DNA of 64,000 nt from Coffea arabica (taxonomy: Eukaryota > Streptophyta > Magnoliopsida > Gentianales > Rubiaceae), in assembly GCF_036785885.1 (NCBI RefSeq), contig NC_092312.1, positions 14,340,001-14,404,000 of the forward strand. The letters are read 5' to 3'. The stretch's first letter is position 1. Each line of letters starts with the position of its first letter. This document shows, piece by piece, positions 3,551 through 57,570 of this stretch. A program made the translations under genes and the position numbers. A model generated the notes under the pieces. It saw only the letters and a program-made list of their open reading frames with translations, ran no database searches and was not told where the DNA came from.

Positions 3551-4314
3551 TACCCCATCAATAATCTTGACTAAGGATATAAAGCATTTGGGGATTTGAA
3601 ACATTTGGCATTCAAGATGTGAAAAAATGTCTTCCAAGGAAAATGACAGGAAATTTCTAACGCAAGTAGCAGTGGCAGTTTGCATTAGTAACTGTTGATG
3701 CTATTTTGGTAAAGTAAATTGATGTTTCGCGATGGTGATGATTTAAACTACTTTTTAATGCCTTAGGCTTACATGCCAGGTAATTCATCCAAAATTTGTC
3801 TCTTATGGTGGCTTTGGCATTTCAAAGCCTGCCTAAATAGTTGAGCTCTAAATCTAAAGTAGGTATTTTGGTTTTCTTTTTCCCCCATTCGTTGTCATAT
3901 ACAATTCATTATCTTGCTCGAAATTCTTTTCTTTTCTTTTTTTACCAGCAGGGAACATGGAATTTAAAAAATGAAGAAATAAAAAGAGATTTGAATATGA
4001 AACGTCTACTTTTTGAATCTTCAATTTTAACTATTAGTTCAAAACCTTCTCGGCATCTTGCTCGAATTTCACTATCAATATATAACATAATATGCATGCA
4101 TAACTGCCCATTTGATAACGTGGTGCTTTTAATCAAACTTTCTTTTGTTTGGCAAAGTTTTTTTTAGAAAGTGTGCATGTCAACATATTTCAGACTAGAA
4201 ACACTTTATTTTGGTAGAGATATTGCTCCAAGGGCACATTTTTATGTTGTTGAAACATTACAAGTACTTAGGCACAAAAGTATTTACAGTCGGATGATAT
4301 TTGCATTGATTGTA

Positions 4315-5044
4315 GGGATAATTTCATAAACCTCCCCTGAGGTTTTATGAAATATCACCTAGCTCCCTTGAGGTTTTCAAAATCTCACTTAGCACCCCTT
4401 GAATTGACATTTTGATAACATTGGAAGCTCTTCTAACCAAAAGTAATGTTAAAAAATTCATGTTTGAGGAGAGAGATTATTTTAGTGCCTTTAATACCCT
4501 TAGACTATAAAAAAATGAACATTTTACAAACCAAGGGAAAAAAGTACTAAATTGGAACCATCTTAAAAGTGAGGAGATGAAAATTGGTAAAATTTTATGT
4601 TACAGCCAATAGTCACTTTTACAGTAGGAACAGATGGTAAAAACAAATACTAGTTTTTAAACCATTTCTACAAATAAAACTCTTCATAGCGTTGAAGGTA
4701 ATTAGCATGTAAAATCATACATTTGAGCAAAAAAAACTTAGTAATAGATGAAATTCAATTTCAATATCATACAAAAAATTTACTCAAAATACACAGATTT
4801 TTTTTATGGGTGTGAAATATGAAAATTTTATTATAGAAAAAGTCAGAATTTGAAAAACTATTTGGAGTTTCAATTACTTTATTTCTCTTACGCTCTACAT
4901 GAATAGGAATAAATAAATAAAGTTGTGAAACACCAAAAAAGGGAAGAAAAAAAAAAAGAACCTGCAGCTATTATTCTCCAAATGCATTGAATATTTCATT
5001 GATTAAATCTTATATTTCATTGATATTTGCAATTCAATTATACA

Positions 5045-5080
<36 letters not shown>

Positions 5081-5305
5081 TGTGTGTATGTTTTTATAGA
5101 CATTGTTAAAGAAAAGTAGAAAATTTAGAGAAAGAAAAACAAGTTCAGAAAATTTAAATATGGGGGTATTATTGACAATTTATCACCTTTGATATTAGTA
5201 TATGGTCTTACTATCACTTCAAGAGTGTTAAGTGAGATTTTGAAACGTTTAGGGGAGCTAGATGATATTTCATGAAACCTCAAGGGAGGTTTCTGAAATT
5301 ATCTC
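4315..5305. mobile_element. Non-autonomous Mutator-like element (MULE), family A copy 1
   Basis: The element is about 991 bp and is flanked by a perfect 9-bp target duplication 'ttgattgta' (4306-4314 and 5306-5314). The ends form imperfect inverted repeats of roughly 95 bp: the left end starts 'gggataatttcataaacctc', and the reverse complement of the right end starts 'gagataatttcagaaacctc'; both continue into 'aaaatctcactta'. A 9-bp duplication with long terminal inverted repeats is the classic MULE signature. The interior is AT-rich with a (TATG)n microsatellite and no transposase frame. A same-family copy of nearly equal size is at 51329-52324. Confidence 0.85.
5048..5092. repeat. (TATG)n microsatellite
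   Basis: A run of TATG repeats with one TGTG interruption, lying inside the MULE at 4315-5305. Confidence 0.9.
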
Positions 5306-5314
5306 TTGATTGTA

Positions 5315-12377: not shown

Positions 12378-12408
12378 TAGGCAATAAAGAAAACTTCCTT
12401 CTTCCACC

Positions 12409-12504
12409 ATGTCTGTGGAGGCATCAGTACAAACACGACCCATTCATTTATTATTTGCTATCCAAACACACACCAAGACACGCTCAAACACACACGGAGA
12501 CTAA
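12409..12504 (+). CDS. Possible upstream ORF in the PUB17-like 5' leader
   Basis: This 31-codon frame starts with ATG in a good initiation context (ccaccATGt) and stops at TAA before the main start at 12648; no other ATG lies between them. If the transcript begins upstream of it, it could lower translation of the main frame. The predicted TATA box at 12370 would place the cap only about 10 nt before this ATG, which would make it easy to bypass. Its peptide is not recognisable. Confidence 0.3.
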   Translation: MSVEASVQTRPIHLLFAIQTHTKTRSNTHGD

Positions 12505-12647
12505 TTCTTGAGTACAGCTTTCTTTTGGGTTCTGAAGTTTTGATTTTGATCTTCATATTAGCTTTAAGATTGAAAAGGGTCTCTGAATCTACCAATATTT
12601 GTTCATATTTTGGATTATATTGGAAGAAATTCTGGATTTTTTGGTTT

Positions 12648-14813
12648 ATGGCTTCAGCAGCGGTCTTCTCATCATTACGGCGACGGAGGACGCCGTCACT
12701 GGAGGCTTTATTGGCGCCGGTGGAGTTATCCGAGGAGAAATTATTGGTAATTTTGACAGGAATATCATCTGAGCTGATTTCAACATTTTCTTTGAACAAC
12801 AAGACGATGTCGTTTCAGCGGAAGAATTCGCGGAACCTGGTCAGAAAGATTGAGGTTTTCGCGGTTCTTCTTGAGTGTTTGATGGATTCTACATCTGGGA
12901 TTTCATCAATATTGCCTTCTACAGCTGTTTTGTGCTTCAAGGAGTTGTACCTTGTTCTTTACAGGTCCAAGATTCTTCTTGAATATTGCCTGCAATCGAG
13001 TAAGTTATGGCTTTTACTTCAAAACCATTCGATTTCTGGTCATTTCCACGATTTGAGTCAAGAAATTTCCACCCTTTTGGATGTTCTTCCTTTGGATGGA
13101 TTGAATTTGCCTGATGATGTTGTTGAACAAGTACAATTAATAAAGAAACAGTCAAGAAAGTCTAAATTGTTCATTGATAGAAGTGATGAAACTTTGAGAT
13201 TGAAACTCTATTCATTCTTGAATGAATTTGAGTGTGGATATATACCTGATCGGTTTCAACTGTACTCATTTTTTGTCGAAAAGTTGGGGATTAGAGATGC
13301 TAGGAGTGGTAGAATGGAGATTGAGTTTTTGGAGGAGCAGATTGCAAATCATGATGGGGATATTGAGCCCACAGCTTCTGTATTGAATGGATTTGTGGCC
13401 TTGACACGTTATTGTAGGTTTCTGTTGTTTGGATTTGAGGAGGATGAAGTACAAATGAGGATCAGGAAGCATAAGAAACTGAAAAAGGGATTGCTTACTC
13501 AAGAGATAGCTGAGACGTTTATTACAATCCCAAAGGACTTTTGCTGTCCCATATCATTAGATTTGATGAGGGATCCTGTGATAATATCAACTGGCCAGAC
13601 CTATGATCGGAGTTCAATATCAAGATGGATGGAGGAAGGGCATTGTACTTGCCCGAAAACAGGGCAAATGCTTGTTCATACTAAGCTTGTGCCGAATAGG
13701 GCACTCAGAAATTTAATCATGCAGTGGTGTTCTGCACATGGATTTCCATGCGATCCACCAGAGCATGGCGATCCTTGTTGTGATATAATTGCAGCTACTT
13801 CACCTAGCAAGGCTACAGTTGAAGCCAATAAGGCCACTGCACGTGTTCTCATTCAGGAGCTGGCAAATGGATCCGAGGGTGCAAAAACTATTGCTGCACG
13901 AGAATTAAGACTGCTAGCGAAAAATGGAAAAGAAAACAGAGCTTATGTTGCAGAAGCTGGTGCTATTCCTCACTTGAAAAAGCTGCTTTCTTCTCCTGAT
14001 GCAGTTGCACAAGAGAATTCTGTGACTGCTATGCTTAATTTGTCAATTTATGATAAGAACAAAAGCAGAATAATTGATGAAGATGGATGTCTAGAATCTA
14101 TAGTTCGTGTTCTTAAATTTGGGTGCACTACAGAGGCCAGGGAAAATGCTGCAGCAACTTTATTCAGTCTGTCTGCTGTTCATGACTATAAAAAGAGAAT
14201 AGCATTAGAAGATGGTGCAGTTGAAGCCTTGGCAGGGCTGTTAAGAGAAGGGACACCCAGAGGAAAGAAGGATGCTGTAACTGCTCTGTTTAATTTGTCT
14301 ACTCATACAGATAATTGCGTGAGAATGATAGATTCAGGTGCTGTTACTGCTTTAGTTGGAGCCTTGGGATGTGAAGGTGTTGCTGAAGAAGCAGCAGGTG
14401 CGTTGGCCCTGATTGTTAGGCAACCAATTGGGGCTGAAGCAGTTGGAAATGAGGAAAAGGCCGTAGCAGGTCTAATTGGAATGATGCGATGTGGGACTCC
14501 TAGGGCAAAAGAGAATGCAGTTGCCGCACTGCTGGAATTATGTCGGAGTGGTGGTGCTGCCGCAGCAGAGAAGGTGTTGAAAGCACCTGCATTGGCGGGT
14601 TTGCTTCAAACCTTGCTCTTCACGGGGACAAAGAGAGCAAGAAGAAAAGCTGCATCCCTTGCTAGAGTTTTCCAGAGGTGTGAGAATGCATCGCTGCATT
14701 ATGGCGGATTGGGAGTAGGGTATGCATTTGCAGGGAACTCTGCAACAAGTAGGGAAATAAGTTTCAGTAGTGAATATGTGATGCCTGTGCCTGTGTCAGT
14801 GCCGGTATTGTAG
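12648..14813 (+). CDS. PUB17: U-box/ARM-repeat E3 ubiquitin ligase, PUB17-like
   Basis: Intronless 721-residue protein. The start MASAAVFSSLRRRRTPSLEA is characteristic of the PUB17 (ACRE276) clade, so I chose the ATG at 12648; the frame is open upstream but has no earlier ATG. Order: U-box N-terminal domain (about 10-270), U-box (about 294-366, with FCCPISLDLMRDPV, GQTYDR and CPKTGQ, the E2-binding surface), then a series of ARM repeats (about 420-690, e.g. ENSVTAMLNLS and ENAAATLFSLS) that bind substrate. The tail ends in a V/P-rich VPVL, as in its Arabidopsis relative. In the family, PUB17 transfers ubiquitin from E2 to target proteins and is a positive regulator of immune cell death. Nothing is broken. 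PUB17 and its close relatives are similar, so orthology needs a tree. Confidence 0.95.
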   Translation: MASAAVFSSLRRRRTPSLEALLAPVELSEEKLLVILTGISSELISTFSLNNKTMSFQRKNSRNLVRKIEVFAVLLECLMDSTSGISSILPSTAVLCFKELYLVLYRSKILLEYCLQSSKLWLLLQNHSISGHFHDLSQEISTLLDVLPLDGLNLPDDVVEQVQLIKKQSRKSKLFIDRSDETLRLKLYSFLNEFECGYIPDRFQLYSFFVEKLGIRDARSGRMEIEFLEEQIANHDGDIEPTASVLNGFVALTRYCRFLLFGFEEDEVQMRIRKHKKLKKGLLTQEIAETFITIPKDFCCPISLDLMRDPVIISTGQTYDRSSISRWMEEGHCTCPKTGQMLVHTKLVPNRALRNLIMQWCSAHGFPCDPPEHGDPCCDIIAATSPSKATVEANKATARVLIQELANGSEGAKTIAARELRLLAKNGKENRAYVAEAGAIPHLKKLLSSPDAVAQENSVTAMLNLSIYDKNKSRIIDEDGCLESIVRVLKFGCTTEARENAAATLFSLSAVHDYKKRIALEDGAVEALAGLLREGTPRGKKDAVTALFNLSTHTDNCVRMIDSGAVTALVGALGCEGVAEEAAGALALIVRQPIGAEAVGNEEKAVAGLIGMMRCGTPRAKENAVAALLELCRSGGAAAAEKVLKAPALAGLLQTLLFTGTKRARRKAASLARVFQRCENASLHYGGLGVGYAFAGNSATSREISFSSEYVMPVPVSVPVL

Positions 14814-16656
14814 TCATAACTTGTACACTTGTTTTGTTATTCATTTTCTTCCCATTTTTGCCTGTAATATTCAAATTTTTTTTTAAGTTATTAGTGTAAA
14901 AAAGTGAAATGAAGTTATAGGAATACAATTATTGATTTACTGAGCAATTCTTCTGTTTTGGGCATTTATTTCTTCATATCTGATCCGGAGTGACCTAGAA
15001 ACTGAAAATGTTGAATGCCGAGAGTTTATTGGACTGGTACATGATCTTTGAAGACTGAATATCACGATTCTGGTTAAAATGCTGGCAATAATGTGCATTG
15101 TGAAAATATGTCCGTAAGGTTGGGAAGAAAAGAAAACTATGGATGCTCAGAAGAAAACAACTATGTTAGATACGTGTTATGCTTCTTGGAACTCTTTTCG
15201 CTAATGACCAACATGGTTACAATATTTTGGCTCTATATCCAAGAATTATTAATGTCAGAAGCCGGTACCTCTTTTGCCTCTATGGTAAGAGATACTAAAG
15301 GTGCATGGATGGGCCATACTGGGGAGAAAAGATGAGGCTCTAAAGAGGCCAGTTACTAGGGAAAGTTGAAAAAGGCGCAATACTTCATGCTTGATTAAGA
15401 GTTATTAGGCTTTGTTGCATGAGACTAAGCACTCTTACCAAAGTTCTATGTACTTTCAAATTGTCCAACTTGGACGAACTCCTTGGACTTGATCAAAAGG
15501 GAAACAAAAACAAATGAAGGGCAAATAAAGTGGCAAAACATTATTGTCAAACAGGCTCAGCTAAGATGCCAATTCTTGTCAAATCATTGACTGCGCATAT
15601 CTCTGTTACATTCTCAAGTGAATGTTCTATAGTGTTCAGAACCTACTGAAAAAAGCTATCAAAACAAAACTCTTTTGTCATTTCAGCTTTTCATTGGATG
15701 CTTCAGAAGCGTGGTGGATATTGGTTGCTGTTCTTTAGATGTGCACCCACTGTTAGTTCAAGGAATATGTGCCAGTGGATTGGAGATGGGATCCAACTCC
15801 AACCACGCGTCCCTAAAATCATTTTTTTTCTGACGCAGCATTGCTGATGCTATCTCCTCCTTTTAACCTTTTTTGATCCTTGCTTTCGCCTTCTCACCAC
15901 TTTTGCTTAGTGGATGCTGCATCTAATGCCTTGACTGAGACTTTCCATGATTTGGGCTGTGATAAGACCAAACTGCGAAACACCTAAACGCGACTTTCTG
16001 TTAATGTCTGGTAGGGAAAGGACGGACTTCTTGGTGGGATGGATGTACGTTCATCAGTTCATCTTTAGGTACATAATAGAATGGCATTTTTAGGAAAGTT
16101 CTCGGAAAGCCAATGTAGTGGAGTAAAACTAGCATCCCTTGTCTGCGATTGAAGAATATGCAACTTGGATTTGGACCTAAATTAACCAAATCAAGTGGCA
16201 TGCTAATTATTTCCTTTGAAATTGAACAATGAATATTTCGGTGCTGTAGTCTTTTGTTAACAGAGTATTCTGTCTCTGTTTGAAACCTATTCCATGAAAA
16301 CAGAAGCAGAAATATTTTTTGTTACGTTATGTAATTTCTTGTTTGAGTTAATATCTGTGAATTCATTTTCATTATGAATTATCGAAAGTGAGGCTTGTAA
16401 CCTTTTTTTTTTTTTTTTTTGAATCTCCAAAAATTTCAGCAACTTCCACAAATATCCATTTTGAAATCAGATTAGAAAACCACTGCTACAGGCTGCTGCG
16501 CAACCTTTTTTAACCCCTCTAAAATTTAAAGTACTGATATGAAATCCTTTATGCACAAATTATTGCTAGTAGATTTTGTGATATTGGGTTGGTTTTCTGG
16601 TCTAAGTTGTGATAAAGACTGATATTCATTTCCTTCTTCCTTTGTCCATCTTTGTT

Positions 16657-16659
<3 letters not shown>

Positions 16660-16687
<28 letters not shown>
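16660..16687. repeat. (TC)n microsatellite
   Basis: An uninterrupted run of about 14 TC units. Confidence 0.9.
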
Positions 16688-16691
<4 letters not shown>

Positions 16692-17499
16692 TGTTATGCA
16701 TTCATATACTGAGAAACATTTTCGACCTTAGATGTCAACATGGTAGCATAAGCTGCTGCGGGGTGGATTTGCTTGTGCTGGCTGAGGTTCCCCCGATGAC
16801 CTCAAACAGGAAAGGTGGGGTTCAATAATATTGATACGCCCATGGTTTATGTTGTACTAGTAATGGAGCATGTGCTTTGCACGTGAACACGATGCTTCTA
16901 GATTTTTAAATTTTTTTTTTAAAAAATCTATTATTTTGAAGTGATAAATGTAATTGAGACAAACAAATGGGATATTTAATATTTATATTATTTTATATTT
17001 TTTCTGAACTTAGTTAGCTCTAACCAATACAAATGCACAAGCAATAAATCATTCTTTGTTCCAAGAGCACAATATTTTTGTCTTTTGGTTAAATTTAGAT
17101 TACCTAAATGTTATTTTTTATGCCATTTGAGTTTAAATTTTTTTATTTTTGAATACTCCCTTTTAAGTCATTCTATGAATTGTTTATCAGTTATAGTGAG
17201 GTTTTCTAATTATTACTATTATTATTATTTTGTTAACGGTGGATTGTAAAATGATCATTCTAATTATAATAGCATATAAATATATTGAAATTCTATTGTT
17301 CGAATTTAAATAGCTTAAACTTTGAAGAGAAATGTTTTGATTTAGTGAAACTTAATTGTATTTCTTACTGATGACTTGTTTTATGATTATAGAGTTTATA
17401 TAATTAAAAATTGTTAGACGTTAAGGCTATTTATTATATAATAGTCAAACTGAACTTGGATATATTTTTATTCACCATTGAAGTACTCCTTGAAATTTA

Positions 17500-18320
17500 A
17501 AAAAAAAATTTATTTTTTGGCTTAATTCACTGTACCTCAAAGGGATGCTTCACCTTTGCAATTATTATTATGATTGGCATTGATGAATATAATATTCATA
17601 AATTGTTGTTTAATACTGTTAGTTGTTACAAGAATACGATTTATAAAGTTCATTAAATTTAATCTTTATTGCAATTTAAATAAATAAACTTCCCAACATA
17701 AAACCCTTTGCCTACCATTTCCTATTTATATTTTGTATTAAAGTTTTTTACTCCATACTAATATATTCATACTAAAAAGGTGCTCTTAAGGCTTAATTTA
17801 CTTGTATCCAAAAAATAAAAAGACTTATGGCACTTTTTAAGAGACTCATAGTACCAATTCATTATTTATTAATAATGAAATGCAATGCAATTTGTCCATT
17901 TATTAGAGAGGGATGTAATTTTGGCATCATAAAAACTAATATAATTTTTGCTTACACTATTAACTACTAAGATTCACCATATTTTTTAATTAAAATTTGT
18001 TCTTTTTTTGATTTAATTCACTATAACTCAAGGGAATGTTTTTCATTCTTGTAATTGTTGGCATAATTGATATTAATTATTGATGAAATGCAATGAATTG
18101 GCTGTTCTTTTTTTTTTTTTTTGGTTTAATTCACCAGAATCACCGGAATTCAAGAAATGTTTCTTTGTAACTATTAGCATAATTCTTATTAATTATTAAG
18201 GAAATACAATATAATCTGTCCATTTATTAGTGTCAAGGGCAATATTGGTATCATAAAAACTAAGATTAATTTTTACTTACACTAACCATAAAGACTCATT
18301 ATACTTTTTATATTTTATAA
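17500..18320 (+). repeat. Degenerate direct repeats of about 300 bp
   Basis: The order 'aattcact..(caa)gggaatg/ggaatt' then 'aattgttggcataatt' then 'gaaatgcaat..tgtccatttattag' then 'ggcatcataaaaacta' then 'ttacacta..aactaagattcac' occurs around 17870-17990 and again around 18190-18300, with partial copies near 17520 and 18010. The family is unknown. Confidence 0.5.
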
Positions 18321-18397
18321 TTATTATAAAGTATAGTATATAGTACTAGATAATACATATCTGACTGGCATCATTTCTGTTTGTCTGATAACCTTGG

Positions 18398-19275
18398 GAG
18401 AAATTTCTAAGTTTGTGATGAATTTTAAAAAAATTCTACAAAAGGGGTGATTGTGGCGAGGAATTCTGTCGGGGGGGTTTTCGCATTCGTGAAATGCGAG
18501 CTCAAGAGAGCTCGCATTTCGCGAATGCGAGCTCTCATTTGCTCGCATTACAGAGATGCAAATTTTTTTGCTTTTTTTTTTTTGGAGGCAGAGATTTATA
18601 TTTTTGTATTAAAACAAAAAAGGATTTTGACAATCAGTGATTTTGACAATCAGTGATTCCGGAAATGGGCTGTACCATCCTGTCAGTAGGTTCCTTGTTT
18701 CTTATGACAAAATTCAAGCCTGAACTGGATGTCGGAGACGCCCAACGTATTAATAGTTCATTTCCTGTTGAGATGTTCCATGAAGCTTGCCACTCCTCAG
18801 GTGGTTCTTGAGGTGTTGCAGTGCCTACAACTTTCTCTGCACTAGATGACAATTGCATGTAAAATAAGCACGGAGGTTGAGAAGGAAACAGCATAACTGA
18901 AGAATCAAAACAGGTGGAAGCAGTGAGAAAGAGCTACATTAAAGCACATACCAGGGGCTTTGCCGATCGAACTAGAAACGTAGGACCAAGAACCTTCACG
19001 AATCTCTATGATCCTGTCCTCCCATTTAACAGCTGAAGGTGTTTCGCCTCCTCTCCTCCAAAATCCTCCTCCCATCCTGGATCATTCTTAATCATTTGAA
19101 ACTCAGCATACTGAATAAAGCAGACACAAATCACTGAGCTCGCATTTTCGGAATGCGAGCTCGAATTGAGCTCGCATTCTCAAAATGCGAAGACCCCCAT
19201 TTACAGAAACCCCTCCAGGAAACGCCCTCGTTGTAGAATTCTTTTGTTTTTTCATCATAAACTAAGAATTCACCC
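18398..19275. mobile_element. Pack-MULE-like element carrying captured exon sequence
   Basis: The element is 878 bp and flanked by a perfect 9-bp duplication 'taaccttgg' (18389-18397 and 19276-19284). Imperfect terminal inverted repeats of about 150 bp begin gagaaatttctaagtttgtg on the left and gggtgaattcttagtttatg on the reverse-complemented right; they share 'aattctacaa' and a GC-richer core of alternating 'gcgagctc' and 'gcattt.g.gaatgcgagctc', which is itself palindromic. Long TIRs with a 9-bp TSD define a Mutator-like element. The interior on the minus strand reads like two exons with an intron, not transposase, which is the Pack-MULE arrangement. The donor gene is not identified. Confidence 0.8.
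18660..19100 (-). pseudogene. Captured host gene fragment inside the MULE
   Basis: On the minus strand, an upstream open stretch (about 18956-19080, containing PSAVKWEDRIIEIREGSWSY in one frame) ends in a GT at 'cccctg|gtatgtgc'. About 130 bp on, after a candidate 'tagtgcag' acceptor, the frame continues with VVGTATPQEPPEEWQASWNI and then ELLIRWASPTSSSGLNFVIR to about 18650. The protein-like composition and exon-intron pattern contrast with the surrounding AT-rich DNA. There is no start codon or full domain, so I treat it as a non-functional captured piece. I do not recognise the family. Confidence 0.55.
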
Positions 19276-19284
19276 TAACCTTGG

Positions 19285-21750
19285 TTACCAGTCAAAAAGT
19301 TTGTTTGTGTATTCTAAAGAAAAATGACTGATTTGGCTAAACCTGATTAATTGTAGGTGCTTAGATATGCATCTCTTCTCGTGAACTGCTAATTGGAGTT
19401 TCGTATTTGCCGCTTCGTCAACTGCTCTCTTATGTCAACCACTCGAGCGTTGTTAGAACTATATTATGCTCTGAACATTCTCTTTAAATTTCCCAATTTC
19501 CCCTGAAAAGAAAACTTATGTTTTAGATACCCTGCTCCTTTCTTGAGCTTAATTTCCATTCTTGTGGTATTTGCAGTTTCCATCCGTTCATTGTTTTTTA
19601 TAGTCTGAGAACCATGAATGACCCCATCCTGAGCCATGGAGATTGCGCTGGACGTGGCCAAGGTTAATTTGATTTACTAATGACAATCACATCTGCAGCA
19701 CTTGTGAAATGTTATGTACCAGGTAGATGTGGTCATGTAGTCAAAACATTCCATTTTCTATTGATTTAGCTTGATAAATCACTATCGTAAATTGACATAC
19801 AAAAGCTTCGTAATTCATTAGCTCCAAACATGTCTTCAGGGCAGAGATTGCGGTTATTTTGTGATGCTTCAGGACAGGGAATGCCAGACTTGATGGACTG
19901 GACTTAATCATTTGGTGGTATTTATGGAACAAGGAACATGACAGTCTCCATGATGCTAGGTCATTGAGCTAAAATGCATCCGATTCAAGTGTACTAACAT
20001 AAACTGTCCATACAACCATGATCAAGTCTGAAGAGCTAAAAGCCGGTTACCATCTTCCTAGAAGCCCGAGATAGTGATTTACCTTTCCCCTGGGAAGGTA
20101 AGGTAATGATTATGTCCTTCCTAGGAGGGGCTGTCTAGACTTGTATCATGAAGGGAAACCATCACCTCACATGGGAGAGGGAGGCCAATAAGGCTGCAGT
20201 TTCAGACTAAGTCCCCTCTTCCTGTCATCTTCATCATTTTCGTAGTTGTAGTTTTGGTCTATAGATGAGAAAAATTCCTTTCATGGCATATGTTTTATGA
20301 GTTATCACTAATTCGTTTGTATGATTAGTCATCTGCAATAGAATGCAAATTTTGCTGTTGAACTTGTTCGAAAATGCAAGCATATGTTATTTCTTCAAGA
20401 TTTTCATCTATTTAGTTCTGACCCTGCTACCTACATCTTCCATATTGGTTATGTGCATGTTATGCATATCAAAAGCTGCATCTTAGTTTGTATCGAGTAG
20501 AGGGTAAGCTGTTTTTCTGGGGGCTGTTACGGGTAAAAGTGCATAGAAAAATGACATAGCATCTACAGAGAGGATAATTCAAGGTTAGTTTTTAATACAT
20601 CACATCTCCATTCTCATCCGTGAATAGTTGCGAACTTGAGATGTCTTGACAGATTATGACTTCACCCCAGAAAAGCTTTACAATTGTGACTTTTTTTAGG
20701 TTCTAATATGAGATAGCCACGTTCCAAGAGCTATTGGCCATTTTCTGAGTGTTTTATCTTGTACTTCAAATTCTTGCAGTCGAAGAATTCATTTAACTTC
20801 TGAGTTGAAAATTCTTATGTTGCTTATGGCGGCAGTGGGTTCTCGGGATTTGTATCCAAAAGAAAATTCAACAGCGCACAGCAGAGCCAAATTTGGAACG
20901 CAAGTACGACTTCTTTGATGCCATTGAGGACATGTATTCCAACCTCTGTTTGTCCTATTCACTTCCATGTCTTTTACGTTTCTGTTTTTTGGTCAATGAG
21001 GCAATCTTAGTGATTTTGGCTACTGCTTTGACCGAGTCATCCCCAGGGATAAACATAATTGACAGCCAAAAAACTTTGACAAACAGCATTTTACTTGTCA
21101 AAAATCCAAAAAATATAGGGGATTTCAAAACCTGTCAACTAAGATGGTTTTATTTTATTTTATTTTATTTATTTAATAAATCTTTTAAATGGGTATACAC
21201 CTAAGCTTTAGATGTGTTTAGGTGAAAATTGCTTTCCTGACATCAATCCCTTGCCAAAGTGATCTGAAAAAATGACTAAAGGACCTTTCAAGACTTATGA
21301 CAATTCCATCCCAATGACTGCTACAAGATCATATGGCACCTAAACTTAGCTGGGAAAGTGTAAATAGCTCACAACCAAAACTGTTAGAACCGAACATGGA
21401 AGATTAATAACCAAAGGCTTATTATTGGGGGTATAGTAAATTTTTCAATTTTTCCCCCCACTAAATCTGAAAGGATAATAAGGATCCTAGTAATATTTGG
21501 AAGTGCAAACTGATTTCAAACACGAAATTTTCCATTGGCTTAGTCTTATCATCAGTCTGCTAACCAATTTTCATGATAAGAGACCTCAAGAAAGCTATTA
21601 TTCCAAACAAAAAAAAAAGGGCTATTTTACTAATAATATAATAGTTATATACATAAGTTACCAGTAGAAAATGGTACAAAAATAATTCTCCTTTTCCATC
21701 CCCAGGCAGTTCAATTATCCAGTTTAGTTCATCATAGGACCACAGAATTC
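19285..21750. other. Gene-free intergenic DNA upstream of the receptor kinase
   Basis: Scattered short frames only. None has a recognisable domain, including the 103-codon frame at 20893-21204. The last few hundred bases contain the promoter of the receptor kinase; I could not define a single TATA box with confidence. Confidence 0.5.
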
Positions 21751-24276
21751 ATGGCTAGATGGTCTTTCAAAGAAGCTTTGCGATTAGTTTTTCTTGTGAT
21801 CGTAGTCCTCCAAATAAACTTCCTTTCAACAGAGGTGGTAGCTCAAGAAACAGCAAAAATCTCCACTTCATGGAGAAACAATAACCACTCTGTAGCCAAT
21901 GTTACCAGAGCCTTACTTTATCCTTACTATACTTTCAATGATTCATCAGGGCCTTTTATGCAAATTATTTTGTTAAAAGAGATAAGGCCCCGGGTTGGTT
22001 ATGCTTGTGGTTTTGTCTCAAATGGAACAGACGATTCTTTTGTTTTCTCCATCGGAATCGTGCACTATCGTACAGATTTCGTTGGGGTTCATTATTGGTC
22101 TGATCTTGATGTAGTTTGGTTTGCAAACAGAAACAAACCTATCCGTGAGAATGGAACTCTACAGTTCCTCCCAGATGGAAATTTGATCTTGAAAGATGCA
22201 GATGGAACTCTTGTATGGTCTACCAGTACATCTAATAAGGGTGTTGTGGGCATGAAGGTGATGGAAACCGGTAATCTGGTGCTTCATGATGGGAACAATC
22301 AAACTGTTTGGCAGTCTTTTGATCATCCAACAGATACACTTCTTCCAGGGCAGAAACTGGTGGATGGTCAAACTCTTGTGGCTAGATTATCTGAAACTAG
22401 TTGGAACGAGGGCAATTACTATCTTTTGGTAAACCATCAAGGTCTATTTGCATTTTACAAGTCTAACTCCCCGCAGATGTACTTCAATTTTTTTATTCGT
22501 GGAGAAAGGGAAAGCATTGAAACAAGCTATGTTAAAGCAGTAAATGGTACGCTTGCTCTATACATATCTTCAGCTGAGCCAAATGAACCAGATGCAGTGT
22601 TTTCAAAGCCATCCAGCATGAAATATATCAGATATGATTATGATGGCCATTTCAGAGTTTATAATGAGGAAAATAGACCTGTTGATCTCTTGGCAGATTT
22701 TCTGAGCGAATGTGATTATCCAACCGTTTGTGGCAGTTTGGCTCTATGCTCGGGGGGGCAGTGCTCTTGTCCGTCAGGCTTTGAAAGAAGTGACAACCAA
22801 AACAACAGTGGCTGTGTGGAGATAAATCCCACAAAATGTGATGGTCCCCGTTCTCATGGACTACTACATCTTACAGATGTATATTACTTCAATTATGTTG
22901 ATTCTGATGCTGCAGTCTTGAAAGCGACAGATATTGAGAGCTGCAGGTGGTTATGCTTGAGAAACTGCTCATGCAAAGCAGTTCTCTTTCAGCATTTTTT
23001 CAGTAACTTTTCAAGGGGAAACTGCTTCTTACCCTCCCCTGTTCTTTCACTAATAAGTGATGGAAAGCAAAGAAATGATTTTGAATCATCAGCATTCATC
23101 AAAATTTCCAATGACATGTCAAATACATCGGGATCTTCTGCATCGTCCAAACGAAAAGGAATTATAGCTGGATTGACTGCAGGAATTTTCTGTTTGTCAG
23201 TAGTAATCCTTGGCATCTGCATTGTGCGTAGGAAGAAGCAAAGTACTGAGGAAGACGTTGAGACTTACTGGGAACAGCTATCTGGAATGCCCGTGAGATT
23301 TTCTTTTCAGGAGCTACAGGATGCAACTGGAAATTTCTCAAAATTGCTGGGAGAAGGAGGATTCGGCTCAGTTTTTGAAGGAGTTCTGAAAAATGAAGAG
23401 AAAATTGCCGTGAAGCAACCCAACAGTTTAGGGCAAGGGAAGAAGGAGTTCCTGGCTGAGGTCCAGACAATTGGAAGCATTCATCATATCAATCTTGTGA
23501 GACTGATTGGATTTTGCGTTGAAAACCATCATAGACTTTTAGTCTATGAATTTATGAACAATGGATCACTTGACAAATGGATTTTTAGCAAGGATTCTGT
23601 TCAACCTACTCTTGACTGGCTGATAAGAAGGAATATCATCCATGATATAGCAAAAGGTCTGGCTTACCTTCATGAAGAATGCAGACAAAAAATAGTCCAT
23701 CTAGATATCAAACCTCAGAACATCCTGTTAGATGAAAATTTATGTGCAAAGGTTTCTGATTTTGGCTTGTCCAAGTCCATTGATAAGGATCAGAATCAAA
23801 TTGTGACTACATTGAGGGGAACTCCTGGTTATCTGGCACCAGAATGGTTAAGCTCATTTATCACAGAAAAGGCAGATGTCTATAGTTTTGGAGTTGTTGT
23901 AATGGAGATCATATGTTTAAGGAAGAATTTTGATATGTCAGAATCTGAGGATCGTGTACATTTGCTTGATCTGTTTAGGAGAAAGGACGAGGAAGATAGG
24001 CTGATTGATATAATTGAAAGTAACGATGAAGATACTCGACTAAATATTTCAGACATGATTAGAACAATGAAGCTTGCACTATGGTGTTTACGAAGTGATT
24101 TTACCCAGAGGCCATCTATGTCTGCTGCAGTTAAGGTCATGGAGGGTACACTGGACCCCGAAATTAACTTGGAACATCAAACCTTGGACTTTAATCCACT
24201 TGCAGCCATCAGAAGAAAATCTGAATTTGAAACAACAGTATCAGTTCCACCATCAGTACTATCAGGACCAAGGTGA
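21751..24276 (+). CDS. G-type lectin S-receptor-like Ser/Thr kinase, SD2-5-like
   Basis: Intronless, 841 residues, a typical length for the family. Order: signal peptide (about 1-32), bulb-type mannose-binding lectin domain (about 60-220, with VVWFANRNKPI and the GNLVLHDGNNQTVWQSFDHP block), Cys-rich EGF-like segment (CDYPTVCGSLALCSGGQCSC), PAN-like domain (about 365-450), one transmembrane helix (about 470-492), and a cytoplasmic kinase (about 525-800). Kinase motifs present: GEGGFGSVFEG loop, catalytic-lysine AVK (K555), HLDIKPQN with D652, DFG with D670, and GTPGYLAPEW. HLD instead of HRD marks it as a non-RD kinase, a class often linked to innate immune receptors. It is probably a plasma-membrane receptor; the ligand is unknown. 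A decayed relative lies 6 kb downstream at 30130-31680. Confidence 0.93.
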   Translation: MARWSFKEALRLVFLVIVVLQINFLSTEVVAQETAKISTSWRNNNHSVANVTRALLYPYYTFNDSSGPFMQIILLKEIRPRVGYACGFVSNGTDDSFVFSIGIVHYRTDFVGVHYWSDLDVVWFANRNKPIRENGTLQFLPDGNLILKDADGTLVWSTSTSNKGVVGMKVMETGNLVLHDGNNQTVWQSFDHPTDTLLPGQKLVDGQTLVARLSETSWNEGNYYLLVNHQGLFAFYKSNSPQMYFNFFIRGERESIETSYVKAVNGTLALYISSAEPNEPDAVFSKPSSMKYIRYDYDGHFRVYNEENRPVDLLADFLSECDYPTVCGSLALCSGGQCSCPSGFERSDNQNNSGCVEINPTKCDGPRSHGLLHLTDVYYFNYVDSDAAVLKATDIESCRWLCLRNCSCKAVLFQHFFSNFSRGNCFLPSPVLSLISDGKQRNDFESSAFIKISNDMSNTSGSSASSKRKGIIAGLTAGIFCLSVVILGICIVRRKKQSTEEDVETYWEQLSGMPVRFSFQELQDATGNFSKLLGEGGFGSVFEGVLKNEEKIAVKQPNSLGQGKKEFLAEVQTIGSIHHINLVRLIGFCVENHHRLLVYEFMNNGSLDKWIFSKDSVQPTLDWLIRRNIIHDIAKGLAYLHEECRQKIVHLDIKPQNILLDENLCAKVSDFGLSKSIDKDQNQIVTTLRGTPGYLAPEWLSSFITEKADVYSFGVVVMEIICLRKNFDMSESEDRVHLLDLFRRKDEEDRLIDIIESNDEDTRLNISDMIRTMKLALWCLRSDFTQRPSMSAAVKVMEGTLDPEINLEHQTLDFNPLAAIRRKSEFETTVSVPPSVLSGPR

Positions 24277-32709: not shown

Positions 32710-35700
32710 CTATCTTTTCAGTACAAGAATGTCAAAATCAGAGACAGTCCATTCTGCCACCTGATTTGGGGTTTTGAATATTTCAGTTCCCAAGTCAAGA
32801 GAGGTCCACTTCCTCCTAGCAGGTGGGGTTCCTGGATCCTGCAACAAAGATTTCCCAACATCGTCAATCCCAAAATTACCAACATTTTCTAGGCACTCAT
32901 TTAGAGCACATTTTTCTATAATTTCCTATTTCATTAATGGCTATTTAATGGCACTTCTGTTCCACTGAAAATGGAGAAAGTATGGGCATTGATGAAGGGG
33001 TTGATATAAATAGAGAAGTTAGGCAGTTTTTTACACTGGGCATGACATGTAGCATTCATTATTGGGAAAGGCCACAGCTGGCAATACTGATGGTTAGAGT
33101 AAATTGACAATAATATGGCCAGTCAGGCGTTTGCATGCACTTTTTCCTACTCCCATGGTCATACTAGAGGTGTCAAAATGGGTGATTTGGACGGGTTTGA
33201 GTTGGATAAAATGGGTAATGGGTATAAGTGAGTGGTGTCAAAATGGGTGATTTGGGCGGGTTTGGGTTGGGTAAAATGGGTAATGGGTATAAGTGAGTCA
33301 ACTCATTTATATCCATTTAATTAGATGGGTATAAATGGGTAAGTCAAAAAATGAATTGAGTAACCCAATTACCCATTTATAACCCATTTATTTTAACATT
33401 TTGCAAACTCATTTAAATTCATTTTTGCAAACTAAGTTATCAATTTATATCACTCTTTGTACCCATCATTAGTTTTAAATATTTACTTATAATGTTCAAT
33501 AAACTTAATTACCAATTTTTTTTCATTTATACTCTATGTCACAAAATTACCTATTATTTAATAATTGAATAATAAGAATATAAAAATTTGAACTAAGTAC
33601 TATAAAATTAATATAAAAACTTAATCCAAAATTTTTGAACCCCTAACATTTTTTTCATATATAAATTTAAAATTTCATTTTATAAAGATAAGAAAATAGG
33701 CTAAAATTTATCATAAATTGGTAATGCTAAAAAATGAGCAAGTTAACAAACTAAGAGAAAATAAAATAATAAGATAAAACCAACAAATAATAATAATAAT
33801 AAAACAAAAGTAGTTAACATCATGACAAAATGAAAAATTAGAAAAAAAAAAGGTGGGGGAAAAGAAGAGACTTGGGGGGAAGATAATTTTAAATGGGTTA
33901 ATTGGGTTTGATGGGTTACCCAATAATACCCATTTAATAAATGGGTATTATTGGGTAACCCATTTATACCCATATACAAAAATTTAAGATACTCATACCC
34001 ATCTATTCATGGGCGGGTATGGGTAAATTTAGTTAAGTGGGTTAATTTGCCACCTCTAGTCCATACATCATCTCTAATGTATCTAATGAAGCTTAAAGAA
34101 ATTGATGATTGAAGCCAAATTTTAGGAGATCAAAATCATTGGAATTTACTTAACAATGGGAAAGTTTATATAGCAGCCAAGTAAACGAATCCTAAATCAT
34201 TCCAATGTACTCCATGGTACCAAAGACTTGTTAGTTGTTTCTTTTTACTTTTCTTGAAGACTTGAGTATCCTTTAGTAGATTCCAAAGCTAGTAACAAGA
34301 GAGAAATTGGTTGCATACCTGGTAGAAGTAAAGGTTGTGTGAGAGCCGTCCAACATCCAGCTCCCATGTCCTTGATTCACCAATCCAGCCCTCACCTTTC
34401 CTGGTTGGGTAGCCATAGTACGCCCAAACTGGATGTGGCAATATCTGCAGTATCTCCTGAGGCTGAGGATTACTGAAGGGATCACACAAAATGTTAGGCT
34501 TTTCAAGATGATTGGCATTTCCTGGTGCACAGTACAAGTGATAGGCCTCATAAGGGAAATGAGCTGCATCAGTGCGATGAACTCGAGTTCCATTAGGAAA
34601 TGTGTGGTATGGGGGACACAATCTGGGGTCTTTTGCAATGCACCATGATTGTGTTTCTGGATTTATTATCATTTCACTGTATCTTGTTACATCTGAAGTC
34701 ACGTCGCCGTCGCATGGCTGGCCGTTGTTCTTCCAACAGCTCCCCATATCCATCAAGTAAAATTGGCTGCCTGGACCTCCGCCTCTTATCACATTCAAGG
34801 TGAATCTCACCTTGAAATTTGGTGATTCAGGAATCTGTTGACCATATTTGGCATGGACCATATTAACCAGAGAAATTACATTTCTCATAGAGAAAAATAA
34901 TATGCAGAATTCATATATCCTGTGAACTGTAAAGGAAAATTTGTTTTGAGTAAAAGTGAATTGTTCAGAAACACTAAAACAAGAAACAGAATTATGAAAC
35001 TTGGCAAAGGGAATAGAGAGATTGTCAATAAATCTTGAAGAATGTACTCACAATTTTCAACATGCCCCTAGTTGAGTAATGGTACCCACCCGAAAATCCA
35101 TGTGTGGCATCCGATCTCAAGTAAAGCATCAGCCAGGGATACTTGGTTGAGGTTCTCAGTTTATGGTGGAAGATCCAACTTCCATGTCCAAGTTCCTTCT
35201 CCCAGGTGACAGAATAGTACGAAATATTCTGCCCCTCTCCTCTGCTAAGATCGGCCTTCAGGTCCCAAGAACCATAAAATCTTCCCTTAAGTGTGGTCTT
35301 TCTTGGCCCTTGTAGGGTGGTGTAATCATGATACATTGATGGTTGGTTCATGCAACCGTTGCCAAAACAAGGGAACTGGTTATCTGGACCGTATGGCCCT
35401 ACCTTGTGGCCATTTTTCGGGCATCTCGCTGCATAAGTATCCATGTTGCCACTTTTAAGCATGATCATCCAAAACTGCCATGGATGTGGCTTGTCTTCTA
35501 CTTGACATTTATATCCTAAATACAGCTCTTTCTCTGCAGCATAAAGGTCCACATTATGCAATGCCTCTGGCTGCCCACCAAGAAATGGTTGTCCGACTCC
35601 TAGTCTATTATCACCCTCTGTAACTCTATGGACCAGAAGGTATGGAAATTTGCTGCAGAAGGAGCACTCATTCACCCCTGTGAAACACAAATACTGATGA

Positions 35701-38606: not shown

Positions 38607-39152
38607 GTAGAGGTGTCAAAATGGGTGACTTGGGCGGGTTTGGGTTGGGTAAAATGGGTAATGGGTATAAGTGAGTCAACTCATTTATACCCATTTAATT
38701 AGATGGGTATAAATGAGTAAGTCAAAAAATAAATTGGGTAACCCAATTACCCATTTATAATCCATTTATTTTAAATTTTTGTAAACTCATTTAAATTCAT
38801 TTTTGCAAACTAAGTTATCAATTTATACCACTCTTTGTACCCATCATTAGTTTTAAATATTTACTTATAATGTTCAATAAACTTAATTATCAATTTTTTT
38901 TCATTTATACTCTATTTCACAAAATTACCTATTATTTAATAATTGAATAATAAGAATATAAAAATTTGAACTAAGTACTATAAAAACTTAATCCAAAAAT
39001 TTTGAACCCCTAACATTTTTGTCATATATAAATTTAAAATTTCATTTTATAAAGATAAGAAAATAGGCTAAAATTTATCATAAATTGATAATGCTAAAAA
39101 ATAAGCAAGTTAACAAACTAAGAGAAAATAAAATAATAAGATAAAACTAACA

Positions 39153-46836: not shown

Positions 46837-47082
46837 GGTTTCTTTGATAAATTAAAATTGATTAATGCTCGAAAAATTTGAGCTTTTCGACGGCAATTTA
46901 CCCGTATACGGTATACCATGTTTTCCGGTAGCTATATTATGCTGTCTTTTATGTTGTATTTGCAAAAGCCTACCACGGATTAGTTCTGAATCTGGGGTAT
47001 ACCTTGTAATTGCATTCAAATGTGAGTAATTGATCATAACTGGCACCTCTTTTCTTTCAACTCAGCAAGAAACAAACAAAAG

Positions 47083-48696
47083 ATGTCTGCAATCTTTACA
47101 AGCTTTTGTCCACCACCACCGCCACCAATCATCTCTTTCATGGAAATGGCCACTTCCATTTCAGAGCTCCATCAAGCTCATGCTTATATGCTCAAAACTG
47201 GTCTTTTCCAACAACCCTTTGCCGCCAGCCGCCTAATGACGGCTGCAGCCAGCTCCTCTATTGACAGCCTCTCGTATGCCCACACTATATTTACCCAAAC
47301 TCCCCAACCAAACACATATATGTACAACACTCTGATACGTGGTTATGCTACTAGTCCTACTCCGAATGTGGCCCTGTTTTTGTTCCTTAAGTTGCTTTGT
47401 GATGATCAAGATTTGCTTCCAGACAAGTACACTTATACATTTGTTCTCAAAGCTTGTGCTAGTCTTTGCCGTGTTAAACATGGGAAACAAATTCATGGGT
47501 GTGTGATAAAAAATGGGCTTTCATGGGATGTTTATATATGCAATACTCTGCTCCATATGTATGCAAAATGTGGGTGCTTTGAAGCTGCACGCCATATGCT
47601 TGATAGAATGCCTAATAGGGATGTTGTTTCGTGGAATGCTGTGTTGAGTGTTTATGTAGAAATGGGGTTAGTGGACTTGGCATTTGACTTTTTCAGTGAG
47701 ATGCCTGTGAAGAATTTGGAGTCTTGGAATTTTATGCTTTCAGGGTATGCGAATTCTGGACTTCTTGATGAGGCATGGAGGGTTTTTGATGAAATGTCGG
47801 TGAAAGATGTTGTTTCTTGGAATGCGTTGATCACCGGATATGCTAATTCTGGTAGGTATAATGAAGTCTTGGAGCTTTTTGATGATATGCAGAGAGCAAG
47901 AGTGAAACCTGATAATCATACACTGGTGACTTTACTGTCTGCTTGTGCTGGTATTGGAGCTTTGGAACAGGGCAAGTGGGTTCGTGCTTACATGGATCGA
48001 AATGGGATAGAGGCCAATGGTTTTCTAGCTACTGCTCTTGTGGATATGTATTCCAAATGTGGGTGTATTGAGAAGGCTGTTGAAGTGTTTGACAGTGCAT
48101 CAAGGAAGGATGTTAGTACTTGGAATGCGATGATTACAGGTTTCAGCGTCCATGGTTTTGGAGAACAGGCATTAAAGGTATTTTCTGAAATGGTTGAAAA
48201 TGGTTTCAAACCTAATGACGTTACTTTTGTAAGTCTCTTATCAGCCTGCAGTCGTGCAGGTTTGTTATTTGAGAGTCATGAGATCTTTGATAACATGTTT
48301 TCTATTTATGGAATTAAACCTAAAATTGAGCATTATGGTTGTCTGGTGGATTTACTTGGTCGATTTGGGTTGTTAAAGGAGGCAGAAGAACTTGTGGAGA
48401 AAATGCCACAGAAAGATGTGCTTATTATTTGGGAATCTCTTCTGAGTGCTTGCAGAAATCATGGTAATGTCGAGCTGGCAGAACATATTGCTGGGAAACT
48501 TTTAGAGTTGAATCCTCAAGACAATGCCGGTTATGTTCAGTTGTCAAATATTCATGCCTCCAAGGGACGATGGAGTGATGTTGTGGATATCAGAAGGAAG
48601 ATGAGGGAAAAACTAGTCAGTAAGAAACCCGGTGGCAGTGTGATTGAAGTTAATGGAGTTGTTCATGAATTTTTAGCTGGTGAAGGAATGATTTGA
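47083..48696 (+). CDS. Pentatricopeptide repeat protein, PLS class, E subgroup
   Basis: Intronless, 537 residues, as is usual for plant PLS-type PPRs. PPR motifs run from about residue 50 to 430 (for example DVVSWNAVLSVYVEMGLVDL, DVVSWNALITGYANSGRYNE, DVSTWNAMITGFSVHGFGEQ and KPNDVTFVSLLSACSRAG), with P, L and S variants. They are followed by an E domain (IIWESLLSACRNHGNVELAE, to VVHEFLAGEGMI) and no DYW deaminase domain. Such proteins bind organellar RNA one base per repeat and usually guide C-to-U editing with a DYW partner in trans. The N-terminus is Ser/Thr/Pro-rich and could act as a transit peptide; an internal Met at residue 22 is an alternative start. It resembles the At4g18840 group, which I did not verify. 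No breaks are visible. Confidence 0.92.
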   Translation: MSAIFTSFCPPPPPPIISFMEMATSISELHQAHAYMLKTGLFQQPFAASRLMTAAASSSIDSLSYAHTIFTQTPQPNTYMYNTLIRGYATSPTPNVALFLFLKLLCDDQDLLPDKYTYTFVLKACASLCRVKHGKQIHGCVIKNGLSWDVYICNTLLHMYAKCGCFEAARHMLDRMPNRDVVSWNAVLSVYVEMGLVDLAFDFFSEMPVKNLESWNFMLSGYANSGLLDEAWRVFDEMSVKDVVSWNALITGYANSGRYNEVLELFDDMQRARVKPDNHTLVTLLSACAGIGALEQGKWVRAYMDRNGIEANGFLATALVDMYSKCGCIEKAVEVFDSASRKDVSTWNAMITGFSVHGFGEQALKVFSEMVENGFKPNDVTFVSLLSACSRAGLLFESHEIFDNMFSIYGIKPKIEHYGCLVDLLGRFGLLKEAEELVEKMPQKDVLIIWESLLSACRNHGNVELAEHIAGKLLELNPQDNAGYVQLSNIHASKGRWSDVVDIRRKMREKLVSKKPGGSVIEVNGVVHEFLAGEGMI

Positions 48697-49626: not shown

Positions 49627-50967
49627 CTACACAAGGAATTGATAATCAACTCTTGAGCGCTCATTCTGTAAGACAGCAGCAAGATACAGCTCATTCAGTT
49701 CAGACCATACCTGCCTGAAGACTTTGACAATTAGGTCATGGTATTCATCATAATTTAATGTCAGATAACAAGCCAAGAGTTCTTCGAGCTCTTCTGGCTT
49801 CTCAATGCCTTTCTCTATGATCATCTCAATCATAGATTCCCTGAAGTCATTTTGTGGATTATATGAATTCTTTACAACGGCATAGCTATCAAAGGCTGTT
49901 GTGTCTCCTTTTGCTTTCTCCTTTGTCTTCTTTTTCACCCTCTTAGCTTTCTTGATATCCTCTAGAGCCTTGATTTTGCACTCAATCTTGGCAGTATTTC
50001 TGGGAGAGTAAGATTTGATTCTGCTGGTTGATTTCCTTCTTTTACTCTGGCAATCTCTGTTGAAGTACACTGACCTCCTCTGCTGCTCTAATTTTGACTT
50101 CATTTCTTTTGGTTTTATGTCCTTCAAGTTTTTCCACTGCAAACTAATTTCTTCATGTTCTTTTTCAGAAAGGGCAATACATTCCTCCAAATTCTTAGCT
50201 TCCGACATGCAGTCCTCTTCAATTGTTCCTAGATTGGAGTTCGAGAAAGAAAAGCTGGGCTGCTTCACAGAATTTGGGGCTCTTGACTCCCCGAAGTCTT
50301 CTCCAGTATAAGGAATCCTTTCTGGGTATACTTCAAATATAATCTTCTCAGCTGATTTGGTCATTATCGCCTCTTCTTCCTTAGATCCTCTATCTGCATT
50401 TTTCTCTTTTAACTTCCTTCGCTCTGGTTTTCTTAATTTGTGAGGTTTTGCAGCTTTTTGTTGTGGTGTTTTCACCTCTATTTCCTCAGCGATCTTTTTC
50501 CTTCTGAGTGGATCATTTTGCAGTGGAATGCCTGCCTTCTCTTGCAAAACACCTGAGTTTCTTAGGGCAGAGACCATGTCATTGAATTTCCAAGTAACTT
50601 CTCTTCCGGCCATTCCCATGACTTCTGATTTAGAATCTGCAGGGCCTCCAAGTTCGTCATCCTCTGGATTGTACCACTCAGAATTTAGACCAACTGTATG
50701 CTTCTCTGCTTCCTCCCCAAATGAAAGCCTCCAGTAAGAGTCATCATCTCGATTATAGAACCGACCCTCTCCACAGCGAACAAATGATAAAGAACTTGGG
50801 GATGACAATTCTAGTTGCCTTCCCTCCTTTGCTTTCGCTGATATGGGGTCATCAGACCTGCCCTTCTTTTGCTTAAACTTTGAGAGCCAAGAAATTGGGA
50901 AGACATGGGTGATTAAAGAAGAATGGGATGAAGTAAATGAAGTATTCTTTCTTCCCAACTTCATCAT
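49627..50967 (-). CDS. OVATE family protein (OFP5-like transcriptional repressor)
   Basis: Single exon, 446 residues from the ATG at 50967 ([11 protein letters not shown]). The frame runs 19 codons further upstream but without an ATG. The C-terminal OVATE domain is at about 360-425 ([40 protein letters not shown]). The long N-terminal part is charged, with several basic clusters that could be nuclear signals ([26 protein letters not shown]) and a Ser-rich start. OFPs repress transcription, interact with TALE homeodomain proteins and TRM proteins, and affect cell division plane and organ shape. The long form with MMxxGRK at the start fits the OFP5 group, by recall and unverified. Confidence 0.9.
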
Positions 50968-51319
50968 TTGCTTGAGAGTGTTTCCTTCCTTTGCAGTTAT
51001 GCCTTGAATTTGATGTAGTTTCAAGTTGTGGAATGGAAAGAGTGATGAAACTCAAGGCGGAATAGATAGATATAGAGCAGTTGAAAGCAGTTAGCATGGC
51101 ATTGGGGAAGTGGGTCTGTGACCATTTACTTCAAAAGAAAAGCCCGCCTGATTCTTGTGACCACTCGCCCACTTTTTCCTACTTTCTAGTTTGTACTTTG
51201 CTTTGTAGAATGGCTGTTCTATCTCCAGGAGACCAATGATCTATGTGGTCCTTTTAACTAGAACCTACCTATTCCATCACCATATAAAGGTCGAATACAC
51301 AGCAAAAAGGTTATATTCT
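50968..51319. other. OFP gene 5' flank
   Basis: Presumed leader and promoter of the minus-strand OFP gene. A MULE begins at 51329, only about 360 bp upstream of the start codon. Confidence 0.5.
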
Positions 51320-51328
51320 TTTATTTAT

Positions 51329-52324
51329 GGGATAATTTCCGAAACCTCCCCTAGGGTGTTTCCACCAATTTCATTGACCTCCCTTAAAGTTTGTAAAATT
51401 ACACTGACCTCCCCTGAGGTTAAGGTTTTTTTAAATTACACTAACCTCCCTTGAGATTAAGGTTTTGATAAACCAAAAATCAGTCCAAATAAGAAAAAAT
51501 ACCATTAAAAAAGTACTTTTTGGGGAGAGGCAAACTTTTATTCCATAAATGGGCTTTATGCTTGTGTACAAGTTATATTGTAAAGGAATGAAAAACATAT
51601 TAATAAAAATGAGGGAAGGTAAATGCAAATAGCAAACAAAAAATAACTAGCAATTGACTTTCTCTACATAGTTGAATCAATAGCAAGTACATTGGATTAC
51701 AACGGCTTTTTTTTTTCAGCTCTTTGCCATTTTGCGTGTAAAAGCAACAAGAAGCATTAAGATGGGTCTCATTTTCACTTGAAGAAGCAAATTTTGAGGA
51801 GGGAAGGGGGGGGGGAGGAGGGGGACTACTGATTTTGTGTAAGTTTTGCAAGTTGAAGGTGAAGTATAGGTGTAGAAACTATGGTCTTGTCAACCTACAA
51901 GGAGAAATCATGGAATTTATTGCAATTGTAATTGCAAGGCATTTGTAAAGATTTTTAGAGTTAAAAAAATCTAGACAAATTGTTGTTTGGTGCATTAATT
52001 TCTGAGGGTGAACAAATATTTGGTGCATCAATTGATACTATTTTGTAACTACAGGTTATTATTCATTATTAAAAAAATTTTCAACAGCTGTTTTCATTAA
52101 TTAGTTACTAACAATTAATTAGTAACCTAATTACCTAATTATCATATATTAATTTTCGATAAGACATAATATCTTATGGTATATGAGTAAATTTTTTTCT
52201 AATGTGATGCAAGCAATTGGACCCACAATGCTATTAATTAGGGGACGTTAGTGATATTTTATAAACTTTAGGGGAGGCGAATGAAATTGTCAAAAATCTC
52301 AAGGGAAGTTTATGAAATTATCCT
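51329..52324. mobile_element. Non-autonomous Mutator-like element, family A copy 2
   Basis: About 996 bp flanked by a perfect 9-bp TSD 'tttatttat' (51320-51328 and 52325-52333). The terminal inverted repeats start 'gggataatttccgaaacctc' on the left and 'aggataatttcataaacttc' on the right reverse complement, matching the element at 4315-5305. There is no transposase; internal poly-G and poly-A runs are present. Confidence 0.85.
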
Positions 52325-52339
52325 TTTATTTATTCTTCA

Positions 52340-57119: not shown

Positions 57120-57193
57120 CTATTGGGTCAAGTAGTAAAGATCTTAATGTCCCTCAAGTGAGGTTTTTAGTTCGAGTCTTGTGAATAGAGAAA
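57120..57193 (+). mobile_element. SINE-like head interrupted by a foldback MULE
   Basis: 'attgggtcaagtagtaaag' and a B-box-like 'tagttcgagtctt' resemble a tRNA-derived SINE head. The sequence appears to resume after the MULE at 57561, so the MULE inserted into it. Confidence 0.45.
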
Positions 57194-57560: not shown

Positions 57561-57570
57561 AATAGAGAAA

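Follow-up and report, generated by a model that had tools for sequence, protein, structure and literature searches.

An 878-bp element (18398-19275) is very probably a non-autonomous Mutator-like element (MULE) of the Pack-MULE type, which possesses a captured piece of a glycine-rich domain protein (GRDP) gene and was inserted, presumably by a transposase acting in trans. The element lies in a stretch of DNA of 64 kb, all of which was analysed and which is referred to here as the window. Pack-MULEs are one known route by which exons are copied and recombined in plants, and they may also silence the source genes. The mechanism by which they capture genes is still argued over. The element is of a known kind. 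Its cargo can be named, and the architecture of its ends is mildly unusual.

The window looks like plant nuclear DNA by its gene content. Coding regions were found for a U-box/ARM protein (12381-14813), a B-lectin receptor kinase (21637-24276), a PPR protein (47026-48696), an Ovate-family protein (49627-51051), and a cytochrome P450 (58838-59986). No matches were found in the window with Rfam (gathering scores) or ARAGORN.

Insertion site and terminal inverted repeats

The original prediction was of a perfect 9-bp target-site duplication (TSD) around an 878-bp element, and both were found to be present. There are exactly two copies of TAACCTTGG in the 64-kb window, one on the left (18389..18397) and one on the right (19276..19284), with 878 bp between them. 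In the available text of a family survey, MULEs have TSDs of 8-11 bp, usually 9, and terminal inverted repeats (TIRs) of 14-500 bp (PMC6446971). The TSD of this element is a perfect 9-bp TAACCTTGG, and its ends are about 140 bp long and 75% identical. Because the 9-bp duplication sits at the ends of the TIRs, insertion of the element has been demonstrated.

The left TIR (18398..18541, plus strand) and the right TIR (19127..19275, minus strand) were compared by local alignment. Positions 18405-18541 align with 19268-19127 over 144 columns, 108 of which are identical (75%). Over ungapped columns the identity is 80% (108/135). Inverted ends of about 150 bp had been predicted, and they are present in imperfect form. 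The alignment has a score of 93. When 19,881 inverted pairs of 155-bp segments were drawn at random from the window, the best of them scored 62, and none (0/19,881) scored as high as the TIRs. An identity of only 75% between the ends implies an old element or one whose ends did not match from the outset.

The window was also scanned for exact 9-mer pairs located 300-3000 bp apart. A total of 5,142 pairs were identified, the best 3,000 by similarity of their 30-bp ends were kept, words with fewer than three different letters were removed, and 1,074 pairs were rescored. Among these 1,074, the TAACCTTGG pair was fourth by row and third by place. The pairs ranked above it come from two element-like places, at 57185 and 4306.

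Each of these places has features of its own. At 57185-57570, two copies of ATAGAGAAA flank 368 bp, and the TIRs are about 160 bp long. This place is MITE-like, with 80% identity over ungapped 142-bp arms and only 78 bp between the arms. The place at 4306-5314 has 991 bp flanked by two copies of TTGATTGTA, and its TIRs (GATAATTTCATAAACCTCCC...) are about 90 bp long. No cargo was identified there, and the longest inner frame is 66 aa. A further place, 51318-52331, has 996 bp between two copies of CTTTTATTT, and its TIRs of about 85 bp start with GATAATTTC. The TSD word CTTTTATTT is of low complexity. The places at 51318 and 4306 perhaps belong to a related family, because their TIRs begin with the same GATAATTTC. 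The window also contains repeats rich in TGGGTA (33169-33340 and 38679-38718). These include a 65-bp tandem pair (33169-33298) and, between 33301 and 38718, 40-bp inverted arms that are 90% complementary.

No disrupted host gene was identified at the insertion site in the scan against Pfam of 10 of the 50 listed frames that overlap 14814-21636. Some of the 50 are inside the element. The 10 scanned frames gave a single row, SIN1, with 15.4 bits, which is under the curated cut-off of 27.5. A palindrome at the target site, TAACC-TT-GGTTA in the joined flanks, was considered and rejected. Its fold is ordinary (z -1.1, with 29 of 200 shuffles as good). Adjoining the left side of the element is an imperfect direct duplication (18000-18094 and 18113-18210), with 76 of 102 columns identical. 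It is older than the element and apparently unrelated to it.

The captured fragment of a probable GRDP gene

Pack-MULEs have no transposase gene of their own and carry fragments of host genes. No stop-to-stop frame that lies entirely within the element is longer than 99 aa, and this longest one is part of the cargo; the element is therefore without a transposase gene. The interior had been taken for a minus-strand piece of a host gene with two exons and one intron, and the Pfam match given below agrees with this. Exon A (18952..19110), an intron of 115 bp (18837..18951), and exon B, the matched part of the domain (18682..18836), are all on the minus strand. The intron is of the GT-AG type (GTATGT...TGCAG). 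The splice is in phase, with KAP and EKVV joined via a shared codon.

The spliced peptide of 95 aa matches Pfam PF25335, GRDP_C, with 53.3 bits (E 4.4e-14, cut-off 27). GRDP_C is the C-terminal domain of glycine-rich domain proteins. The match covers residues 1-78 of the peptide and 26-90 of the 143 positions of the profile, and it is continuous across the splice. Alone, the frame of exon A scores 25.0 bits (profile 20-46), just under the cut-off of 27, and exon B scores 33.9 bits (profile 38-90). These two matches are in the right order and abut. The other Pfam rows for the cargo, CBM_2 and PARP_regulatory, are both under their cut-offs. A search of PDB with the cargo peptide gave no meaningful relative (four rows, best E 0.22).

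The donor probably belonged to the family of glycine-rich domain proteins, as judged by the domain that a GRDP donor is expected to encode (GRDP_C, profile 26-90 of 143). The DUF1399 and glycine-rich domains are absent from the cargo, and GRDP_C alone passed its Pfam cut-off. Thus, the cargo is a fragment and not a GRDP gene. Since the intron has been kept, the cargo was copied from DNA and not from spliced mRNA. The identification as a Pack-MULE is supported by the 9-bp TSD, the long TIRs, and the presence of an intron in the piece of host gene, and the donor family can now be named.

The limits of the cargo are less sharp on both sides. The 5' limit of exon A is inferred from an acceptor-like TTTATTCAG, which ends at 19111 on the minus strand. 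At its end towards the right TIR, exon A has a stretch in a different reading frame (YAEFQMIKNDPGWEEDFGG). When XX was placed at the supposed frame break, the GRDP_C score rose from 53.3 to 58.8 bits, and the match began at residue 20, past the YAEFQMIKNDPGWEEDFGG stretch. A frame break in exon A is likely from these scores. The peptide nearest the right TIR has no Pfam match of its own, and for this reason neither the 5' limit of the cargo nor the frame break is proven. The stretch next to the right TIR can be assigned to the GRDP gene only tentatively. On the other side, the GRDP_C match ends near 18682, and a perfect 16-bp tandem duplication of 2.2 copies (18623..18658) is located between there and the left TIR. 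This duplication could be filler DNA.

The following course of events would account for the element. A MULE with long TIRs very probably picked up roughly 0.45-0.55 kb of a GRDP gene. This piece probably included the tail of an intron and a first exon, followed by the 115-bp intron and some or all of a second exon. The capture probably took place within a parent MULE, through gap repair or template switching. The filled element was then inserted at the 18389 site, putatively by a transposase supplied in trans.

A hypothetical spliced frame of 108 codons (18634..19075, minus strand) is predicted in the cargo, with an ATG at 19075 and a stop at 18634-18636. It crosses the splice junction. If transcribed, the cargo could yield a short spliced RNA with this frame or small RNAs against its donor. 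In the available text of PMC6446971, read-through of TIRs can give hairpin RNA, and siRNAs accompany long MULE TIRs. Because of this association, silencing by the element is a fair possibility. An automatic annotator could also call a false GRDP gene at the locus (18389-19284).

It is possible, with a probability well short of even, that the element belongs to an ordinary non-autonomous MULE family, in which the interior with the GRDP piece is common to many copies and the capture is old. The TIRs and the cargo do look aged, with 75% identity between the TIRs and the likely frame break in exon A. Multicopy Pack-MULEs are also common in rice (481/1337, as quoted in the available text of PMC8277862). 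However, no second copy was found in the window. The best blastn match of the TIRs or the cargo outside the element had an E of 0.046 and matches were of at most 24 bp, and tblastx with the element gave no matches elsewhere in the window at E up to 1. Moreover, even in such a family the element would remain a Pack-MULE, merely a multicopy one.

Paired palindromic units in the ends

Repeated self-complementary blocks had been noticed in each end, and these were identified as four units of the form CGCATT-N5-AATGCG. They start at 18482, 18513, 19141, and 19173 and are found nowhere else in the window, where the expectation from shuffled sequence is 0.00. The left pair (18481..18530, units at 18482 and 18513) forms a 23-bp stem with a 4-nt loop. 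The right pair (19140..19190, units at 19141 and 19173) folds into an interrupted stem. The distance between the centres of the units is 31 bp in the left end and 32 bp in the right end, about three helical turns, and the centre of the outer unit is 92 bp from the element end on the left and 94 bp on the right. The left end possesses an additional degenerate block (18543-18565), which is 65% to the reference.

Each TIR was predicted to be able to fold, and the DNA folds bear this out. The palindromic parts have z values of -7.86 on the left and -8.06 on the right, with 0 of 200 shuffles as good at each end, and the whole TIRs have z values of -8.6 and -7.1. Weaker folding was obtained for the six TIRs at the window's three other element-like sites (z +1.1 to -5.0). 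Some of these also beat their shuffles, yet their z values are weaker, and such strong folding is therefore not common to all TIRs in the window.

Between the two ends, identity is higher in the palindromic part of the TIRs (54/61) than in the outer part (54/74; Fisher p 0.031). All 12 arm letters are identical in the four units. When each unit is compared with its homologue in the other end, 24/24 arm letters and 2/10 core letters are the same (Fisher p 2.5e-6), a test that is partly circular because the split into arms and cores was read off the same four copies. Core identity is 4/5 and 3/5 within the ends, and 0/5 and 2/5 between homologous units. Concerted evolution of the units within each end was considered, and there are too few letters to claim it.

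The palindromic parts are also rich in CpG. The observed/expected ratio is 1.55 (18481-18541) and 1.23 (19136-19190), whereas the whole window has 0.46 and the cargo 0.42. No sign of methylation-driven CpG decay was found among the 12 aligned places in the TIRs with CpG in at least one end. Of these, five are kept in both ends, one has CpG against TpG/CpA, and six show other changes.

The CpG-rich palindromic pairs are the one mildly unusual feature of the element. Paired palindromic units in plant MULE TIRs were not described in the titles and abstract openings of the literature surveyed. The 11-mer AATGCGAGCTC was matched in the texts of four papers, whose titles show no relation to the element. 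An exact scan of viral_contigs for the unit gave 0 matches; a plant repeat is not expected in such data. The paired units are putative paired dimer-binding sites, either for the transposase or for a factor of the host.

The internal repeats of each TIR and its ability to fold on itself recall foldback elements. FARE and Tnr8, named here from a reference list, are plant elements of the Foldback or Mutator-Foldback kind. The element could in principle be a foldback-type element, with composite TIRs, internal repeats, and a 9-bp TSD, that was moved by a non-Mutator transposase. Foldback elements have been described with composite tandem-repeat TIRs, and the nematode Tm1 family combines traits of Mutator and Foldback, according to the available text of PMC3169594. 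This origin appears improbable. There are only two clear units per end, plus the one degenerate block on the left, and no long array, and plant Mutator elements span the same range of TSDs and TIRs in the part of the survey available (PMC6446971). A foldback element and a MULE are nevertheless hard to tell apart here. The cargo is truly gene-like by its GRDP_C match, but it is scarcely conceivable that a GRDP pseudogene fragment, without any transposon, lies between chance inverted repeats and a chance 9-mer repeat. The 9-mer pair coincides precisely with the ends of the 140-bp inverted repeats, no random pair reached their score, and two element-like places precede the pair among those rescored.

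For a Pack-MULE, the paired palindromes might serve as a capture device as well as a binding site. Extruded hairpins would stall replication forks or be cut, and repair would then copy in host DNA. We regard this as a long shot. The right side agrees with what this idea predicts, in that no more than about 30 bp separate the hairpin (edge 19140) from the start of the cargo (exon A, 19110). The left side is of no help to it, because the hairpin and the end of the cargo match are about 150 bp apart and the DNA in this gap is unexplained. PMC8277862 does not use the words hairpin, palindrom, or stem-loop. If the idea is true, MULE families with such ends should be enriched for captured genes. The element, with strong paired palindromes in its ends near the cargo, offers a concrete example on which to ask if capture is promoted by the structure of the ends.

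Comparison with known elements

Like Pack-MULEs, the element has a 9-bp TSD, long TIRs, no transposase frame, and host exons and an intron copied from DNA. Its cargo is like GRDP genes in matching Pfam GRDP_C over the cut-off and unlike them in that about 80 residues of one domain remain. A search of the literature by joint naming found no Pack-MULE with GRDP cargo. Animal Pack-TIRs also have non-TE DNA between two TIR transposon ends, and their cargo is small, with a median of 224 bp compared with 305 bp quoted for Pack-MULEs. They are mostly of the hAT and TcMariner types in the available text (PMC8277862), whereas the element here has a Mutator-type TSD in a plant.

Two families share more of the architecture of the ends, as far as the available portions of their descriptions go. 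Repeated motifs in the TIRs are also present in PM-ZIBP, a type 1 Pack-MULE family of tomato (PMC3310237). There the tandem copies are entire TIRs, whereas the element here possesses short, CpG-rich, strongly folding palindromic pairs. Tm1 of root-knot nematodes shares the 9-bp TSD, and its composite TIRs with repeated blocks resemble the ends found here (PMC3169594). It has a varying number of a motif of about 14 bp, unlike the two 17-bp palindromes per end found here. Among the literature compared, in the text available, PM-ZIBP (PMC3310237) and Tm1 (PMC3169594) are the closest in print to the element.
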